From the IMG/VR virus record IMGVR_UViG_3300021956_000080, positions 1 to 23,813 of that record: 23,813 nucleotides of DNA; one strand, written 5' to 3'. The DNA is from a virus. The notes under the pieces are model-generated. The model ran no database searches, had not been told where the DNA came from, and was given only the letters and a program-made list of their open reading frames with translations. Every line of letters starts with the position of its first letter. The first letter of the stretch is position 1. The position numbers and the translations under genes were made by a program. Below are positions 6,799-23,145 of this stretch, piece by piece.

Positions 6799-7503
6799 TT
6801 ATTGGAATAAACCTCTAATAAACTCATCACTCTCCAAAGGTCTGCCGAATTTAACCTCGCCTGTTGCACTTATAAACACGATTTGGTCGCCTGTTGGCGT
6901 TCCACTTGAATAAATCTCTCTTACATCCACACCACCACGAGAGAAATACAAACAAGTCTTGCCTATCATATCTGTCCAAGTAATTGAGTTTTCGCCACCA
7001 GCAGCCGTGTATTGTTTTGTATAAACTTGACCACCAGCTACTATAACCGTTCCTTCAGGAGTTACACTTGTACCGCTTGTTCCATAAGCACCGCTTCCTT
7101 GTAAACTTACGCTATAAGTAGCGATGTCTTTATAAGGTGCGTTCATTTGAAAACTAGATAAATTACAAGTTCCTGATATTATTACTAAACCATCTGTTCC
7201 GTTGTCTATAACGAACTTGATTGAAATAGGAGTTCGGTTTTGTTGTATGCTTAAAAAATCTAAATAATTATATCCATTTAATGTTACTATTCCATCACAA
7301 GTTACTGTCCAAGAAGCTATGTCTATTTTAAATTCTCTATACCAAGCCGAAGATTGGCTAGTTACTTCTTTTTGTCCAGCTTGTACGCTAAAACTACAAT
7401 TCGTAGAACACGCAAATGCTACATCACGACCTAAAGGATATTCCTCACTAGGTGCGTAGTGCTTGTAAAGCATTATATTTTTACCATTTACTTTATCTGC
7501 CAT
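6799..7503 (-). CDS. Second tail-tube-like structural protein
   Basis: A 234-aa protein. The first 155 residues look like a siphovirus tail-tube fold: a conserved-looking pattern of FACSTNCSFSVQAGQKEVT, SWTVTCDGIV, a helix with LDFLSIQQ, then VIISGTCNLSSFQMNAPY and ATYSVSLQGSG. About 80 extra residues (TPEGTVIVAGGQVY to RGLFQ) form a beta-rich addition, possibly a surface or hub-facing domain. It lies between the tail-tip protein and the fibre, far from the main tube gene at 12206-12646. That position suggests a distal-tail ring or adaptor with a tube-like fold rather than the main tube, which is inference. Its ATG lies 9 bp after the upstream stop codon. Confidence 0.65.
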   Translation of the reverse strand: MADKVNGKNIMLYKHYAPSEEYPLGRDVAFACSTNCSFSVQAGQKEVTSQSSAWYREFKIDIASWTVTCDGIVTLNGYNYLDFLSIQQNRTPISIKFVIDNGTDGLVIISGTCNLSSFQMNAPYKDIATYSVSLQGSGAYGTSGTSVTPEGTVIVAGGQVYTKQYTAAGGENSITWTDMIGKTCLYFSRGGVDVREIYSSGTPTGDQIVFISATGEVKFGRPLESDEFIRGLFQ

Positions 7504-11522: not shown

Positions 11523-11867
11523 TTAATTTACTCCGTACAATTTTAATGTTCTCGCTAATTGTTCATCTGTTAACATTACCTTTTCTTCTTTTTCCTCAAT
11601 ATCGTCAATTTCAGGTATATGCCAAAAAGACCTAATAGACTTTGGTGATGATTCCATAGTGCTACTTAAATATACAATATAGGCGAGGTTTCTTGTCCTC
11701 GCCCATTCGTTTAACTCTTGTTTTTCCTTTCCCATTACAATAATAGAAAAGTCTTTCCAAGTCATCTCCCAAAACTCGCTTGGGCGTATATTACATTCAG
11801 CAGCCTTAACTAAAATATCATCCCAAGTTTGATTATTTAGACTTTTTTTTTTCGACTTTAGCAGCAC
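11523..11867 (-). CDS. Tail assembly chaperone, downstream frame (gpT-like)
   Basis: The frame runs from the overlap with the preceding chaperone to TAA at 11523-11525. Its only start-like codon is a GTG at 11867 inside the upstream gene, so the main product is probably a fusion made by frameshifting in the A10 run at 11843-11852. Content: NNQTWDDILVKAAECNIRPSEFWEMTWKDFSIIV, a motif seen in the T-part of many phage chaperone pairs, then a helical region and an acidic end (IEEKEEKVMLTDEQLAR). Frameshifted product would be about 220 residues. Gene order (tail tube, chaperones, tape measure) supports the call. In such systems the longer form recruits the tape measure protein. Confidence 0.8.
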   Translation of the reverse strand: MLLKSKKKSLNNQTWDDILVKAAECNIRPSEFWEMTWKDFSIIVMGKEKQELNEWARTRNLAYIVYLSSTMESSPKSIRSFWHIPEIDDIEEKEEKVMLTDEQLARTLKLYGVN

Positions 11868-12189
11868 CTTGTACAGTTGTTATTGTATTTTCTACAATGT
11901 ATTTAATGTACTCTATGTATTGACCTTTGTCGTTAAAAAGTCCTCCTAATTCATCTACCCAATCACAAACATCTACATCTGTATATTCAATAGGTTGTTT
12001 GTTGCTTATACAAGCAGATTTATAACCTATGTAAATCATTTTTACAATAGTATCTAAATCATATTGAGTTTTTCCTAATAATTCAAAGTACTTATCTATC
12101 GTAATATTGTTTTCGGTACAAAATTCACGCATCGACCAAGTACCCCATTTAAGAGGAATTGTTTTGTTGTTTAATTTAAGTTCGAACAT
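11833..12189 (-). CDS. Tail assembly chaperone, upstream frame (gpG-like)
   Basis: A 118-aa protein starting MFELKLNNKTIPLKWGTWSM. The pattern of a short beta N-terminus followed by helices (CTENNITIDKYFELLG, LDTIVKMIYIGYKSAC) is typical of gpG-like chaperones in Gram-negative siphoviruses. It ends VEKKKSK in the A10 run and overlaps the next frame by 35 bp. It lies 16 bp after the tail tube gene. The normal product is the short chaperone; a fraction of ribosomes would shift to give the G-T fusion. Both forms act before tail assembly and are absent from virions in studied phages. Confidence 0.82.
   Translation of the reverse strand: MFELKLNNKTIPLKWGTWSMREFCTENNITIDKYFELLGKTQYDLDTIVKMIYIGYKSACISNKQPIEYTDVDVCDWVDELGGLFNDKGQYIEYIKYIVENTITTVQGAAKVEKKKSK
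11843..11852 (-). other. Slippery A10 run, probable -2 or +1 programmed frameshift site
   Basis: The minus-strand RNA reads GUC GAA AAA AAA AAG UCU AAA UAA in the upstream chaperone frame. The downstream chaperone frame reads AAA AAA AAA AGU CUA AAU, which is +1 (equal to -2) relative to the first. Tail chaperone frameshifts are conserved in tailed phages; most are -1 (lambda), with -2 known in Mu. Ten consecutive A residues allow either route. Which direction is used cannot be told from sequence. Confidence 0.75.
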
Positions 12190-12205: not shown

Positions 12206-12646
12206 TTATGCGGTTACAGTTTGAGTTAATGGAGGTAATGCAACTGTAAAAGTAGCACTAAACTTCACATCATCTTTATCTGCTGCATTTACATCAAAAG
12301 CTGATACAAATACAGTTCCGCTATAAACCACGTTACCAGTTACTGGTGTAGCTTCACCCATTTTCATTGCGAAAATAGTTTTGTTAACGAAAGCAGCATA
12401 TAATTGATTATAAGAATCTTTAGATGCAGTTCCTGTTTGGTCAATCGCAAATCCGTCAGCTTTGATTGTTTGTGTGTAAGCTGGACCAGGTTGAAATTGG
12501 TCGCCACATTTAGATGTAGCATCAATTACGTTTACTGTTGATGTAATTGAGTTAGATGTAAGACAAGCAACAGGCTTGAATGTGCTATCTCCATCTATGT
12601 CCGCCATTAGGATATAATCCCTAGCTGATACTTTAGTTTCTGCCAT
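12206..12646 (-). CDS. Major tail tube protein
   Basis: A 146-aa protein with the layout of small siphovirus tail-tube proteins: SARDYILMADIDGDSTFKPVAC, then TSNSITSTVNVIDATSKCGD, YTQTIKADGFAID, a helix (YNQLYAAFVNKTIFAMK) and C-terminal strands (YSGTVFVSAFDVNA, then FSATFTVALPP). Acidic N-terminal loop and central helix are typical. It sits between the tail terminator and the chaperone genes, the expected position, 4 bp after the former. It assembles into the hexameric tube around the tape measure protein. A second protein with similar features is encoded at 6799-7503. Confidence 0.85.
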   Translation of the reverse strand: MAETKVSARDYILMADIDGDSTFKPVACLTSNSITSTVNVIDATSKCGDQFQPGPAYTQTIKADGFAIDQTGTASKDSYNQLYAAFVNKTIFAMKMGEATPVTGNVVYSGTVFVSAFDVNAADKDDVKFSATFTVALPPLTQTVTA

Positions 12647-13058: not shown

Positions 13059-13638
13059 TTTTTATTACGTTTTCAATTCTATTAATTAAATTAGGTTTTT
13101 CTTGCTCAAATGATGGTATTAAAAATGGTTGTGGTCTTAAACCCTTTTTAAGTATGTTTATTGCTATTGCATAAGCAACAGACATATTTTCTTTATTTTG
13201 AGTCGCTTTGCTACCTTTTCTTCTTTGTGTTTTAGTGCTATATGTTCCAGTTATTCCTTTACTTGCTACCCATTTAGCCAAAGCGTTTACCATATCTACA
13301 AACTTGCCACCAGTTTTGCCTTTGAATTGAGCAGCAAAATCTTCATATCCTGATGGTATAGTAACCTTTCCGCCTGTGCCAAATTCAACATAAGGAGCAT
13401 ATAATAAATTAGAACCAACGCTATAAACAAACCCATTTTGATTGCTAACTTCAGTTAGAACTATTGAATTTCTTAATGTGCCAAAATTAACAGGTGCTAA
13501 TCTTTTGGCATCCGATTGAATCTTTAAGGCAGATGCATTAACTTCATTTTTAACTGCTATTTGGATTTTTTTATCCATTTCTTTAAAGCTAGTTAAAACA
13601 TCGTTTAAACCCTTTATTTCAAACGTTATATTAGCCAT
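13051..13638 (-). CDS. HK97 gp10-like minor tail/connector protein
   Basis: A 195-aa protein. The N-terminal half shows the gp10 family pattern: an amphipathic strand (ITFEIKGLNDVLTSF), a long helix (IAVKNEVNASALKIQSDAKRL), APVNFGTLRNSI, and YSVGSNLLYAPYVEFGTGG. The LAP-x-x-x-GTLRxSI and YAxYVEFGT elements are the usual hallmarks. The C-terminal half has a basic KTQRRKGSKATQN segment and PQPFLIPSFEQ, also common in the family. Its start overlaps the stop of the head-tail joining gene in an 8-bp ATGGCTAA overlap, and its end overlaps the terminator gene by 8 bp. In HK97 and relatives such proteins sit at the head-tail interface. Confidence 0.85.
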   Translation of the reverse strand: MANITFEIKGLNDVLTSFKEMDKKIQIAVKNEVNASALKIQSDAKRLAPVNFGTLRNSIVLTEVSNQNGFVYSVGSNLLYAPYVEFGTGGKVTIPSGYEDFAAQFKGKTGGKFVDMVNALAKWVASKGITGTYSTKTQRRKGSKATQNKENMSVAYAIAINILKKGLRPQPFLIPSFEQEKPNLINRIENVIKNA

Positions 13639-13972
13639 TCATTATGATTTCTAAGAAACGGTGCTGATTATCAACATCATTGATGGATTGAATCGTGTAC
13701 ATCGTTCCTTCTATTTCTAATTTATAATCGCTTGTTATAGTTAAGCCATATCTTAAATAAACCTTAGCATCTTGATAAAAGGTAAGTTCAGATTCAAGCA
13801 AAGTTCTTGTGCTTTTTGCTGGTCTAAAATCACCCCAAACTATCTCTTGTACGGCAAATGTGGTTGTATAGCCACCTTGACCATCGCTAACTCGTGTAGG
13901 CACATAAAGAGTTACTCTACGAGTCATCGTGGATGCACTAAGATTCCACCCCTTTTTTTGACCTATTTTCAT
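13631..13972 (-). CDS. Head-tail joining (closure) protein
   Basis: With the start at ATG 13972 this is a 113-aa protein beginning MKIGQKKGWN. It matches the phage head-tail joining pattern: TRRVTLYVPTRVSDGQGGYT, then VWGDFRPAKSTRTLLESE, RYGLTITSDYKLEIEGTMYT and a final IQSINDVDNQHRFLEIIM. An in-frame ATG 66 bp upstream exists, but it would overlap the gp6-like gene by 65 bp and add residues unlike the family, so 13972 is preferred; this start is one base after the upstream TAA. The protein closes the connector after packaging and forms the tail docking surface. Confidence 0.85.
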   Translation of the reverse strand: MKIGQKKGWNLSASTMTRRVTLYVPTRVSDGQGGYTTTFAVQEIVWGDFRPAKSTRTLLESELTFYQDAKVYLRYGLTITSDYKLEIEGTMYTIQSINDVDNQHRFLEIIMNG

Positions 13973-13973
13973 A

Positions 13974-14525
13974 TTATAAAATTGGACTCGTTCTAGTATA
14001 TCTTTGACAGGCTCTCCAAGTCTTTTCACAAACCGCATAAGAATCGTAATGCTCTATATCTGCACCTCTATTCTCGTAATCAAAGTTTATTTGGTCTAAA
14101 ATAGCCACTTTAAGTTCTTTAGGGACACTTGTCATTCCACTTGTGTATGTTGCCCTTAATTGATTCCAAATAGGGAAATTAAGGCTAGGATATTGCCCAC
14201 CGACTAATCGGTAATTAGCTGCTAATACTTCCGTATTATTTACATCATCATATAACTTAAAAGTAGTTGGGTCAACTGGACCATAAGGAAGGTTAAAATT
14301 ACTAGCTGGGTTATTAAACCAAATAGTAACGTTCTTTTGTACTAAACATTGACCAATAGCCTTTTCAACCGCTTCTCTTGCTTCTGTGATTAAATCGGTA
14401 ATTAACGCATCATCTGCCGTTGTTGTTACACGACAATAGTTTTTAGCCTCTGCAAGTGTTACAGGCTCGGTTGGAGTGCCAACGTTTACAAGGGTAAAAT
14501 CAATTAAGTAATTATAGAAAGACAT
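13974..14525 (-). CDS. gp6-like head-tail connector protein
   Basis: A 183-aa protein with the gp6-like pattern: PVTLAEAKNYCRVTTTADDALI, the helix LITEAREAVEKAIGQCLVQKN, then LPYGPVDPTTFKLY, a beta region (LRATYTSGM) and a final helix (VPKELKVAILDQINFDYENRG). These are the standard elements of connectors that add the second ring below the portal. It is the first gene after the terminator at 14565-14587 and has a promoter-like site 13 bases before its ATG, so it may start a separate transcript. The next gene begins one base after its stop codon. Confidence 0.87.
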   Translation of the reverse strand: MSFYNYLIDFTLVNVGTPTEPVTLAEAKNYCRVTTTADDALITDLITEAREAVEKAIGQCLVQKNVTIWFNNPASNFNLPYGPVDPTTFKLYDDVNNTEVLAANYRLVGGQYPSLNFPIWNQLRATYTSGMTSVPKELKVAILDQINFDYENRGADIEHYDSYAVCEKTWRACQRYTRTSPIL

Positions 14526-19691: not shown

Positions 19692-21012
19692 CTAAAATAC
19701 TGACACAACAAATTTCGGTGTATATTCAAAAATCATACGCATAGCCAAACAATCCGAAAAGTCAGGTGAACGACCAATTAAAGCCTTTACTTTATCCTTT
19801 GGTATTATTCCCTTACTGCCATCATTATCTACTGCTTTTTGTTTTACTTGTTCAAGTTCTTCTATAATTAATTGCTTCTGTTTGCCATCAGCATTTATGT
19901 AAACTTTATTATCGTTTATCATTTCAGCCAACTTAAAATAACATTGTGATTTAAGATTGTCGAAGTTTTCCTTATGTCTTGTAATTGGGTTATCTAATGG
20001 TCTTGAGTTATTTACAAATCCCTTGCAACGTAAAATATCTACGCAGCCACCGCCTACGCCATCTTCATCCACGACAATGTTAGATGTAGGCACTTGATAC
20101 TCTTGCTGAAACTTTTTTATGATGTCAGCCACTTCCACAACAGACTTACCATTAAACTGATGAAGTTTAACACGCATACCATCCCATACCCCAATGACAG
20201 TACTATCGCCGCCGAAACGAGCAACATCACAAGAAATGTAACGTGAACCACTAGGTACATAAGTGCTAGTGAAAGCATCAAGTATTTTTTCATAGTCTAT
20301 AAGTTGTGCAGGGTCATCTAAATATTCCCAATTACCAAATAACAAACGTTCTTTACTGGTCTTATCTAGTGTTAATAGGTTTTCTTTATAGTGCTTAGAT
20401 ATAAAAGGGTTGTCATCAATTAACGATGAAATGAATCTTTTATTGTTAGTTATCGTGCCATCTTGTTGTGGTTTATAGAACTCCGAGTATGTCCAATTCT
20501 TAGCTGGATTACAAGTGTAAAGAATCTTAGGCACTAAATCGTTTTGGTCTAATTGAAATCTTATCCTTGATTTAATGATGTTTCTTGCTTTGTCATCTAC
20601 CTGATTGGCTTCATCTATAAACGCATCGGTAATCTCCAACGAACCTAATTCATCAAAGTTAGGGTCGCTAGGATATGAGTAAAGGTCTTTGAGTAAGATT
20701 GTTGAGCCGTTAGGAAAATCTATTTGGCTCATTTGTGCGTTATACTTGTAATGCTTTCCAGCTTCTAAGCCTTGCATTTTTGCCACTTGAAAGAAAGACA
20801 CAAGCGTAGTTTCTTTTAATGTCTTTAAGACTGCACGACCTATCAAGCCACGAGTATTGGGATATTTTAGTCGCATCTTTAGTTGCCAATAACAACCAAG
20901 TGCCGTTTTTCCACCTTATTCAGCCCCCAGCACCGCCACCGAACAATATCTCATTTGTGAGATTATCTTCTAAGAGGTCAAGTGCTGAGGTTTGTTTTAT
21001 TGATAGTTCCAT
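19692..21012 (-). CDS. terL: Terminase large subunit, reading frame interrupted in Walker A
   Basis: The gene starts at ATG 21012 (MELSIKQTSALDLLED) and runs 30 codons to GGGAGG, then meets TGA at 20922-20920. The family sequence resumes in another frame at 20912 with GKTALGCYWQLKMRLKYPN and runs to TAG at 19694-19692. Joined, it gives 436 residues, normal for TerL: Walker A 25-33, Walker B ITDAFIDEA (acidic pair 130-131), then the RNase H-like nuclease with Asp259 (ISCDVARFGGD), Asp312 (VVDEDG) and Asp417 (SPDFSD). It cuts and pumps DNA into the prohead. A plain ATG at 20876 gives a 394-aa protein without the P-loop, which should not package DNA. The break is either programmed bypassing, a disabling insertion or an error (see the site at 20913-20925). 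No non-AUG start is needed; an in-frame TAA lies 45 bases upstream of the ATG. Confidence 0.88.
20913..20925 (-). other. Candidate translational bypass site in terL
   Basis: Minus strand: GGC-TGAATAA-GGT followed by GGA AAA ACG. The first frame ends GGT GGC GGT GCT GGG GGC and meets TGA. GGC (20925-20923) and GGT (20915-20913) are both decoded by one glycine tRNA (anticodon GCC). Moving the peptidyl-tRNA from GGC to GGT skips 7 nt, and resuming at GGA yields exactly GGGAGGGKT. The TAA blocks the alternative of a simple +1 shift and a -1 shift leads to a non-family frame. The layout resembles the T4 gene 60 hop (matched Gly codons, stop after take-off) but with a much shorter gap. Not tested. 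Confidence 0.5.
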
Positions 21013-21018
21013 AATTGA

Positions 21019-21082
21019 TATTCGTATTAGTCGTAGTAATCGTAGTAGTCGTAGTTAGTACGAGTGCTACGAGTAGTACGAG
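21019..21082 (-). repeat. 9-bp tandem repeat array able to form a 23-bp hairpin
   Basis: In minus-strand order the array reads three CTCGTANYA units, one spacer A, three CTACGAYTA units and one ATACGAATA. The TCGTA and TACGA cores are inverses, so 21081-21059 can pair with 21053-21031 (19 of 23 positions, 5-nt loop CTAAC). It fills the gap between terS and terL and ends 6 bases before the terL ATG. Possible roles: packaging initiation site bound by TerS, or an RNA structure controlling terL. Not previously identified by me as a known element. Confidence 0.85.
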
Positions 21083-21083
21083 G

Positions 21084-21431
21084 CTAAATGCTACCTGTTC
21101 TTTCTACGTAAGTTTTCTTTTCTTCCCATACAATGTTCATTCCGCCACTAAGTTCTATTTCAGTAGATTGCTTTGCTCTACCTTCCAACCTATCAAATAA
21201 TTCTTTGTAAGCGTTTAAATCGCCTTTTAAAGCCTTATTGATTAAAACCATATCTAATTGCTCTGCTACTGTAAATTCTTCTTTTTCTCCTGTAACTGGG
21301 TTAGTCTTGGTTTGAACTAATTCTAATAAACGTAAAAGTCTAGTCTTGCTATTTGGTACACCTTTAGGTTTACCAGCTGGGTTTCCGCTAACTCCTTTAG
21401 GAAAAGGTTTAAGATTTTGTTCGTTTGCCAT
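21084..21431 (-). CDS. terS: Terminase small subunit (DUF5681-type)
   Basis: A 115-aa protein. The N-terminus has a basic Gly/Pro-rich element (PFPKGVSGNPAGKPKGVPNS) of the DUF5681 kind, usually found in small proteins before terL. A helical middle (RLLRLLELVQTK, AEQLDMVLINKALKGDLNAYKELFDRL) fits a DNA-binding or oligomerisation domain, and EGRAKQSTEIELSGG is a typical end segment. It lies 71 bp upstream of terL with the repeat array between them. TerS proteins recognise the packaging site and stimulate the large subunit. The call rests on family pattern plus position. Confidence 0.8.
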   Translation of the reverse strand: MANEQNLKPFPKGVSGNPAGKPKGVPNSKTRLLRLLELVQTKTNPVTGEKEEFTVAEQLDMVLINKALKGDLNAYKELFDRLEGRAKQSTEIELSGGMNIVWEEKKTYVERTGSI

Positions 21432-21453: not shown

Positions 21454-22677
21454 TTACAAAGGTACTCCGTTCTTCTTGATTATTAAGGTTGGGTCTAGTT
21501 TCTTCATTCTATCAACTATAACTTGGCAGTATTTTGGGTCTAGTTCTATGCCAAAACACTTTCGTTTAAGTTGATGTGAAGCTACCATTGTTGTACCAGA
21601 ACCCATAAATGGTTCGTAAATTAAACTTTCTAATTTACTAAAATCTTCAATAGCTTTAAATGGAAGTTCAACTGGAAAACATGCCTTATGTTCATTTTTT
21701 TGACTTCCTGATGAAGATATATTCCAAGTATTCCAATAAACTGAATTTTCACCAATTTTTTGATTTGTCAAATATTTTTCTCCTTTTGACATTAAAAATA
21801 CAAATTCACTATTTCTACTTAATATACCTTCACTTGTAATTGGTATTGCTATACCTTTATTCCAAATAATTGTTTCTTTAACTGAAAATGGGTTTATATC
21901 TGAAAAAACAATTTTGCCATAATTATCTCTTGAATTAGCATTATATGATACATTCCAAAAAACGGTATGCAAATCATTAACATATAAGCTAATATTATTT
22001 AATATGCTAATACAAAATTCAAAATATTCTTCTGGTGTTTTATCATCTTTAAAGTTTTCATATAATGTTTTTGCACCAGTTTTACCAAAAGCAAATTTCC
22101 CACCACCACGCATTGCAACATCACCACTGTTATATGGTGGACTTGTAAAGACTAAATCAATTTTTTGCCCATTCATCAGCTTTGCCACTTGGTCGCTATC
22201 TGTACTATCGCCACAAAGCAATCTATGTTCGCCTATTTCAAATAAATCCCCTAAAACTATATCCGTTTCAATACCACCTTCAGGTGTTGCAAAATCATCT
22301 TCTTCTGCTTCTAAAACTTCTTGCTCAAAGTTGGGTATGTCTAACCCCCATTCGGTTAATTGTTCTACATCCCAATTATTAGCTAGGTCATCCCAATCCC
22401 ATTCGCCATAGCCTACGTTATCTTTAACAATAAATTCTTTCTTTTGTTCTTCGCTTAAATATTTAGCTTGTTTTACAGGCACATCGGTTAATCCTGCTTC
22501 TATACACGCTTTTAAACGCATATTACCACCTAATACAACATTATTCTCATCTATTACAATAGGTCTTAACTCAAGCATTTGGGGGAATGCCTGAATAGAC
22601 TTAACAAGTTGTTTAAACTTATTGTCTTTGATTATACGTGGGTTATTTGAGTTGGGTTTGATTTCTGTTATTAGCAT
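21454..22677 (-). CDS. DNA methyltransferase with N-terminal ParB-like domain
   Basis: A 407-aa fusion. Residues 1-62 have the ParB/Srx-like pattern (MLITEIKPNSNNPRIIKDN, then IDENNVVLGGNMRLKACIEAG). A helical link follows to about 130, and then an amino-methyltransferase: HRLLCGDST (151-159), catalytic TSPPYN (178-183), a long target-recognition region and the SAM-binding motif EPFMGSGTT (355-363), with GIELDPKYC. Motif IV before motif I marks the beta class; the SPPY form is commonest in N4-cytosine enzymes, but N6-adenine is possible. It modifies phage DNA, probably against host restriction. No partner nuclease is encoded nearby. Its ATG overlaps the stop of the 40-aa gene (ATGCTAA). Confidence 0.93.
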   Translation of the reverse strand: MLITEIKPNSNNPRIIKDNKFKQLVKSIQAFPQMLELRPIVIDENNVVLGGNMRLKACIEAGLTDVPVKQAKYLSEEQKKEFIVKDNVGYGEWDWDDLANNWDVEQLTEWGLDIPNFEQEVLEAEEDDFATPEGGIETDIVLGDLFEIGEHRLLCGDSTDSDQVAKLMNGQKIDLVFTSPPYNSGDVAMRGGGKFAFGKTGAKTLYENFKDDKTPEEYFEFCISILNNISLYVNDLHTVFWNVSYNANSRDNYGKIVFSDINPFSVKETIIWNKGIAIPITSEGILSRNSEFVFLMSKGEKYLTNQKIGENSVYWNTWNISSSGSQKNEHKACFPVELPFKAIEDFSKLESLIYEPFMGSGTTMVASHQLKRKCFGIELDPKYCQVIVDRMKKLDPTLIIKKNGVPL

Positions 22678-22793
22678 CTTCCTTGTCTATTATAAGGTTT
22701 AACTGGTTTATCTTTAGGACCAGATGTCTTTTTGTACTTGCCACAACGTCTTTTCCCAAACGATACTTTGTTACTATTTCCTGCTTTAGCCAT
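22671..22793 (-). CDS. 40-aa basic protein
   Basis: A frame of 40 codons plus TAA from ATG 22793. The product is strongly basic (MAKAGNSNKVSFGKRRCGKY, then KKTSGPKDKPVKPYNRQGRC), with Lys/Arg making up about a third of it. It starts inside the end of the NinG-like gene (8-bp ATGGCTAA overlap) and ends 7 bp into the methyltransferase gene (ATGCTAA overlap), the tight packing typical of the operon. Small basic proteins ending near YRGQGR in flavobacterial phages look alike, from memory only. Possibly binds nucleic acid. The frame 22643-22831 on the same strand is a shadow of this one. Confidence 0.78.
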   Translation of the reverse strand: MAKAGNSNKVSFGKRRCGKYKKTSGPKDKPVKPYNRQGRC

Positions 22794-23145
22794 ATTTTTC
22801 TATTAATTCGTTTAACTCTGCTCTCGACCATTTATAAACTTTAACCTTAGTAGCTATTGTTTCTAATCCTTTAACGGCTTGTTCGCCTATCTTATGAACT
22901 AATCCTATTCTATACATAGCTTGGTTACCGTGTTTATAGCAGTTACAAGCGGCACATTGAAGGTGTATATTCCATTCGTTAAATCGTAATGCTGAATGAC
23001 CTTTAACTGCAAAATAGTGTCCAGCCTGATTTGCGTTTGGACTACCACAAGAAATGCAAGGCAATCCTTCATCTCTTTTACGAATGTATGCGTTTACTAC
23101 CTTTTGTGTTTTTTCTAATAACTTAGGTAATGGTGTTACTGCCAT
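22786..23145 (-). CDS. ninG: NinG-like HNH/zinc protein
   Basis: A 119-aa protein of the NinG (Rap) group. It has a helical N-terminus (PKLLEKTQKVVNAYIRKRDE) and a zinc/HNH centre: CISCGS (Cys30, Cys33), the AGHYFAVKGHSALRFNEWNIHLQCAACN stretch with His43, His50, His61, Cys64 and Cys67, and KHGN, then MYRIGLVHKIGEQAV. NinG of lambda-like phages is a recombination protein that acts on branched DNA; here it is shorter (lambda NinG is about 200 aa) and probably only the nuclease core. It is 9 bp after the upstream 73-aa gene. Confidence 0.88.
   Translation of the reverse strand: MAVTPLPKLLEKTQKVVNAYIRKRDEGLPCISCGSPNANQAGHYFAVKGHSALRFNEWNIHLQCAACNCYKHGNQAMYRIGLVHKIGEQAVKGLETIATKVKVYKWSRAELNELIEKYG

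Follow-up and report, generated by a model that had tools for sequence, protein, structure and literature searches.

The terminase large-subunit gene (terL) of the window, by which we mean the whole 23,813-nt stretch analysed, a 23.8-kb linear IMG/VR virus contig, is interrupted inside its Walker A loop by a stop-bearing insert, and comparison with related genes suggests that ribosomes cross it by short translational bypassing. We put the probability of this reading at roughly 0.8, including its second part, that the insert came from a mobile endonuclease cassette whose nuclease has since been lost from the window. Several lines of evidence point this way: the insert itself, its recurrence among relatives, the matching of codons on its two sides, purifying selection, association with homing endonucleases and relics of older gene starts.

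On the minus strand, the terL frame from the ATG at 21012 reads MELSIKQTSALDLLEDNLTNEILFGGGAGG through 30 codons (exon 1, 20923–21012) and then meets TGA at 20922–20920, inside the Walker A loop; the terL family sequence GKTALGCYWQ... picks up at GGA 20912 and continues for 406 aa to 19695 (exon 2, 19692–20912 with its stop codon). Exon 2 matches the Terminase_3 (E = 1e-9) and phrog_2 (E = 8e-29) profiles, identifying it as terminase large subunit, and is the sole match to the window's terL in the record. A preliminary description had placed the stop and the resumption at these positions with ten extra bases, and intact relatives bear this out, the excess being exactly 10 nt. In the notation used here (take-off codon, gap and landing codon, separated by bars) the insert is GGC|TGAATAA|GGT: a Gly take-off codon (20923–20925) with TGA immediately 3′, a coding gap holding two stops (20916–20922; TGA in frame 0, TAA in +1) and a Gly landing codon (20913–20915) that, in the hop model, pairs and is not decoded.

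A simple +1 or −1 shift was rejected for the window. As previously described, +1 runs into a stop (TAA 20918–20916), and no RF2-type +1 restoration of the frame was found there; −1 leaves the family frame, also as described, although it ends at TAA 20881–20879 and not, by a minor slip, at 20887–20885. Readthrough of the stop was likewise tried and rejected for the window's terL, and an alternative genetic code was rejected because inserts in the relatives occur in all frames. No tRNA or Rfam elements were found in the window. We propose instead that the ribosome translates as far as the take-off GGC, when its A site holds a stop codon; the glycyl peptidyl-tRNA in the P site would then unpair, the mRNA would move by 10 nt, and the tRNA would re-pair with GGT, with decoding restarting at GGA 20912 to give the P-loop GGGAGGGKT.

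Immediately upstream of terL, in the terS position, lies a DUF5681 gene (21084–21431, minus strand), separated from it by a junction (21013–21083, minus strand) that carries a 9-nt tandem repeat (TCGTAGTAG, 21022–21055) and no endonuclease; in relatives, this junction is the site of an HNH homing endonuclease. Similar repeats occur at the terS–terL junction of intact and interrupted relatives alike. Upstream of terS lie a gene that fuses ParB-like and DNA methylase parts (21454–22677) and a NinG gene (22786–23145), and portal, capsid, protease and tail genes come after terL. Two genes (6799–7503 and 12206–12646) both match the major tail protein family phrog_1407, and the connector and tail region holds overlapping gene pairs at 13631–14525 and 11523–12189, the latter of which might represent a tail chaperone pair made by frameshifting. 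A homing-endonuclease-like gene (1656–2372; phrog_314, NUMOD3) lies at the contig's far end.

First, the interruption recurs. A search with the downstream part of terL alone gave 80 close relatives (84–91% amino-acid identity), and pattern scans and further searches reached relatives of 34–50% identity, of which the 73 that could be parsed and had been fetched without regard to the trait form the distant set. The same loop is interrupted in 23 of the 80 close relatives, by differing inserts, and intact in the other 57, the comparison that had been named as a check; it is also interrupted in 15 of the 73 distant relatives, both sets having been fetched irrespective of the trait and the cases coming from many metagenomes. 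Parsed uniformly, 140 distinct sequences include 45 interrupted genes. The window's own 10-nt insert is found, with the same gap, in L035/L209, L195 and L200, which come from other metagenomes and have different flanks, and 21 other inserts break the same loop. About half of the matches to a stop-in-loop pattern were chance hits unrelated to terL, and one locus (L145, TAATAG plus another frame break) was omitted as probably damaged. Every interrupted case is uncultivated and comes from metagenome contigs. Among 45 terL relatives in bacterial genomes (prophage copies) there were no interrupted loops, and none was seen in isolate phages: the loop is intact in the DNA of phages 11b and phi10:1, and terL is annotated as a single uninterrupted gene in P12002L and Versailles. 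Flavobacterium phage 11b and other relatives lead us to infer that the hosts are Bacteroidota.

Second, the codons flanking the inserts match. The 22 insert classes imply bypasses in every reading frame, with lengths of 1, 5, 6, 8, 10, 13, 14, 16 and 17 nt. Besides the window's class, those with Gly at both ends have TGA gaps (GGC|TGAAT|GGC, GGC|TGAAT|GGT, GGT|TGAAG|GGC, GGT|TGA|GGC, GGT|TGAAT|GGC and GGT|TGAAT|GGT), TAA gaps (GGC|TAACCAA|GGC and GGT|TAA|GGC) or other gaps (GGT|TGACTAAACT|GGA and GGC|TGAATAAAAAAAA|GGT); three combine a Gly take-off with a non-Gly landing (GGT|TGA|AGC, GGC|TAACCAA|AGC and GGT|TGAAAAT|TGC), and others have Ala take-offs (GCC|TA|GCT, GCC|TA|GCC, GCT|TAA|GCG and GCG|TGATAAAAAAA|GCT). 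One class is a +1 site, GGG_TAA (L004 and L021), and the endonuclease search described below added GCT|TG|ACA (L367), GGC|TGACT|GGT (L370) and GGT|TAACCTAACAAAAA|GGT (L378). In all 22 classes, the window's included, a stop codon directly follows the take-off codon, and a hop from the pre-stop codon to the downstream codon would yield exactly GGGAGGGK[ST], as in the family, or the corresponding residues; the position of the stop shifts along the loop, and the pre-stop and post-landing residues always sum to the intact loop. The parse presupposed the target product and left only the identity of the landing codon free, which therefore serves as an independent test. Take-off and landing codons match at two bases in 18 of the 22 classes (14 Gly–Gly and 4 Ala–Ala) and at the middle base in all 22; the remaining four differ at base 1 only, third base aside. 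The pairing of Ala with Ala and Gly with Gly gives a permutation p = 2e-4, with classes that are partly dependent, some sharing ancestry. The hop between matched codons that the preliminary description proposed gains strong support from the comparison of relatives.

Third, homing endonucleases accompany the trait. Among 42 interrupted terL genes, 19 have an HNH endonuclease gene immediately 5′ of them, versus 1 of 92 intact genes: 9/29 versus 0/45 in clade A, and 10/13 versus 1/47 in clade B, where the endonuclease of the lone intact gene stands 510 nt off (Fisher p = 8e-5 and 3e-4, respectively, calculated on earlier counts). These genes belong to PF13392, some with a NUMOD4 motif. The endonuclease adjoins its putative target gene in relatives and not at the window's junction. 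A reverse search, seeded with aligned sequences of the clade B enzyme, found terL directly downstream of the enzyme to be always interrupted, including in the newly found L367, L378 and L370, the last two with the interrupted loop in a distant TerL. In L194 and L370 a relic of an old terL start, reaching into the beginning of the P-loop, is followed by the endonuclease and, after it, by another terL start with the insert. An intron inside L370 was considered and rejected (no Rfam match; the arrangement is relic plus replacement start), and a relic match in L101 proved to be an artefact of its short upstream flank.

Fourth, the trait moves locally. On the TerL tree it changes state about 28 times, at least 21 of them forced by well-supported branches, and identical or near-identical downstream TerL sequences can differ in whether they are interrupted. 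Identity profiles delimit the switched segment as the junction or endonuclease plus the first ~100 nt (~30 codons) of terL, between near-identical flanks (for example, L102 versus L074). The distribution is thus patchy and the conversion tract local, as for a homing cassette.

Other mobile elements point to the same loop. The P-loop DNA of terL is a preferred homing target, because inteins sit in the same P-loop, at GK^[ST], in L250 (1376–3742), L265, L289 and L290; a LAGLIDADG domain was confirmed in the L250 intein. In a further set of loci, group V (L116:1140–1164, L139:2641–2665 and L156:918–942), the P-loop carries a +1 site, GGC_TAAAGC, downstream of an endonuclease-like gene (phrog_681 in L139 and L156; MUG113/T5orf172 matches), and L116 and L156 also contain group I introns. 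An intein-like end (...VWHHN|TGKT) was seen in the P-loop of another TerL in L435 (~3108, its minus strand).

These arrangements suggest how the insert could have arisen. An endonuclease would cut terL at its conserved P-loop, and the cassette would enter there together with a recoded terL 5′ end. A gene rebuilt in this way would, by itself, restore the target; the insert would abolish the cut site and so confer immunity, with the ribosome hopping across it. The stop-bearing insert apparently persists because it shields terL from re-cutting by the mobile endonuclease. In the window, the endonuclease would later have been lost from the junction, leaving the bypassed protective insert.

The alternative that survives best accepts bypassing and holds that it is kept for regulation, giving less or timed terminase, and not for endonuclease immunity. 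Many interrupted loci, numerous clade A loci among them, have no junction endonuclease, and Atkins et al. raise a possible regulatory role for Streptomyces phage terminases (PMC5009743). We nevertheless consider a regulatory origin a minority possibility: the association with endonucleases is strong in both clades and extends to other TerL families, relic structures exist, and inserts occur in any length or frame.

Selection bears on a second alternative, that interrupted terL genes are dead alleles, in defective phages or freshly damaged by endonuclease, sustained by helper phages. In the window's clade, pN/pS among interrupted classes is 0.17 for the 28 codons before the site, and the exon 1 peptide is nearly identical in intact genes; in the downstream part it is 0.15 in interrupted versus 0.13 in intact genes, falling to 0.05 in the first 45 codons 3′ of the insert. 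In all 80 interrupted genes whose end lies within the locus, the second part is full-length, with a 3′ ORF of 385 aa or more. Purifying selection therefore acts on both halves of terL, and decay is seen in none of the downstream halves. Dead alleles would accord with the patchiness of the trait, which sometimes differs between near-identical TerL, and the window has one terL and no second copy. With about one-fifth to one-quarter of relatives interrupted, both halves under selection and landing codons constrained, we regard them as improbable. The disabled terminase and the assembly artefact that the preliminary description had left as alternatives are both disfavoured by this combination of recurrence, selection on both sides and absence of decay.

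Other forms of recoding, namely readthrough or an ordinary +1 or −1 frameshift giving a slightly altered P-loop, are improbable to a similar degree. The GGG_TAA class and group V are +1 shifts, and the classes with in-frame TGA or TAA could undergo readthrough. However, readthrough of the in-frame classes would insert two extra residues into the P-loop, neither shift suits the window, and frameshifts cannot account for a single product being restored from inserts in each of the three frames. The longest G-run 5′ of the stop is 3–9 nt in interrupted genes versus mostly 2 in intact ones (p = 5e-15, by a statistic that ignores kinship), and the G-rich codons before the window's stop (GGTGGCGGTGCTGGGGGC, 20923–20940, minus strand) could, by analogy with RF2 (PMC5009743), act as a Shine–Dalgarno-like stimulator. 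No conserved RNA structure, whether a take-off stem-loop or a common fold, was evident at the site, and downstream folding energy did not differ between interrupted and intact genes (p = 0.075).

Less probable again is that the halves are separate polypeptides produced by re-initiation, a split terminase resembling nrdA of phage Aeh1. Some phage genes divided by an endonuclease insertion do work as separate subunits (PMC2988022), and the window has an ATG at 20876. A start there would omit the P-loop lysine and threonine, however, and this ATG is not conserved (L021/L227 has CAG CTT AAA CAA AGA); there is no in-frame ATG between the stop and GKT, and re-initiation leaves the codon matching unexplained. 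Chance or an assembly or sequencing artefact, to which the restriction of cases to metagenome contigs might point, is effectively excluded because identical inserts recur across many metagenomes, the window's own between different flanks, and 22 distinct ones occur at this one loop.

To our knowledge, natural programmed bypassing in bacteria and phages has essentially one proven case, T4 gene 60. A 2016 review knew of no natural in-frame stop-hop (PMC5009743). Going beyond the preliminary description, the sequence comparisons point to bypassing that recurs in many terL genes, with Ala take-offs, in-frame stop-hops and +1 shifts, and with homing endonucleases in attendance. We lean, with less confidence than for the window itself, towards a broader proposal: at least three homing-endonuclease families would have repeatedly invaded the terL P-loop by means of a replacement start and a tiny hopped insert, so that natural stop-hopping, in-frame and at Ala codons included, would be common among phages of the Bacteroidota type, and one gap length could freely replace another. 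About 20 naturally occurring variants, all at a single site of an essential gene, would form a ready mutational series from which to learn how take-off and landing are governed, and the idea of bypass inserts as immunity devices against homing endonucleases would be generalised. Annotation pipelines will call such terminases, probably functional, broken or miss the ATP-binding loop.

The closest parallel is T4 mobA/gene 60, whose bypass insert is thought to protect from endonuclease cleavage (PMC5009743, PMC2988022), and which shares with terL, as modelled here, a hop between matched Gly codons, a stop right after take-off and a free-standing HNH gene 5′ of the target. Its gap is 50 nt, whereas the proposed terL bypasses span 1–17 nt; terL also differs in its many independent inserts, some with Ala take-offs and some in-frame, in the lack of a detected take-off stem-loop and in the replacement gene start of two loci. 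The suspected bypass in the terminase of Streptomyces phage Hau3 likewise involves a terminase gene, a short gap and a Gly-rich context (PMC5009743), although it concerns UUA, with a role in regulation suggested, in contrast to the stop inside Walker A and the endonuclease linkage described here. The byp elements of Magnusiomyces capitatus mitochondria resemble the terL model in having many bypassed inserts and tolerating imperfect codon matches (PMC5009743), with mitochondrial ribosomes and many genes in place of one site in one phage gene. A 29-nt hop has been reported in Prevotella loescheii, and reproducing it in E. coli proved difficult (PMC5009743). RF2 (prfB) has a similar G-rich Shine–Dalgarno-like sequence and a stop near codon 26–30, and GGG_TAA and group V are also +1 sites; most terL classes, by contrast, would be non-overlapping hops, with no autoregulation implied. 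Finally, the terL intron of phage ICP1 and its adjacent T5orf172 endonuclease also place an endonuclease beside a terL 5′ exon (PMC10448857), a case of collaborative or intronless homing at terL; ICP1 uses RNA splicing, whereas here the ribosome itself would have to pass the insert.
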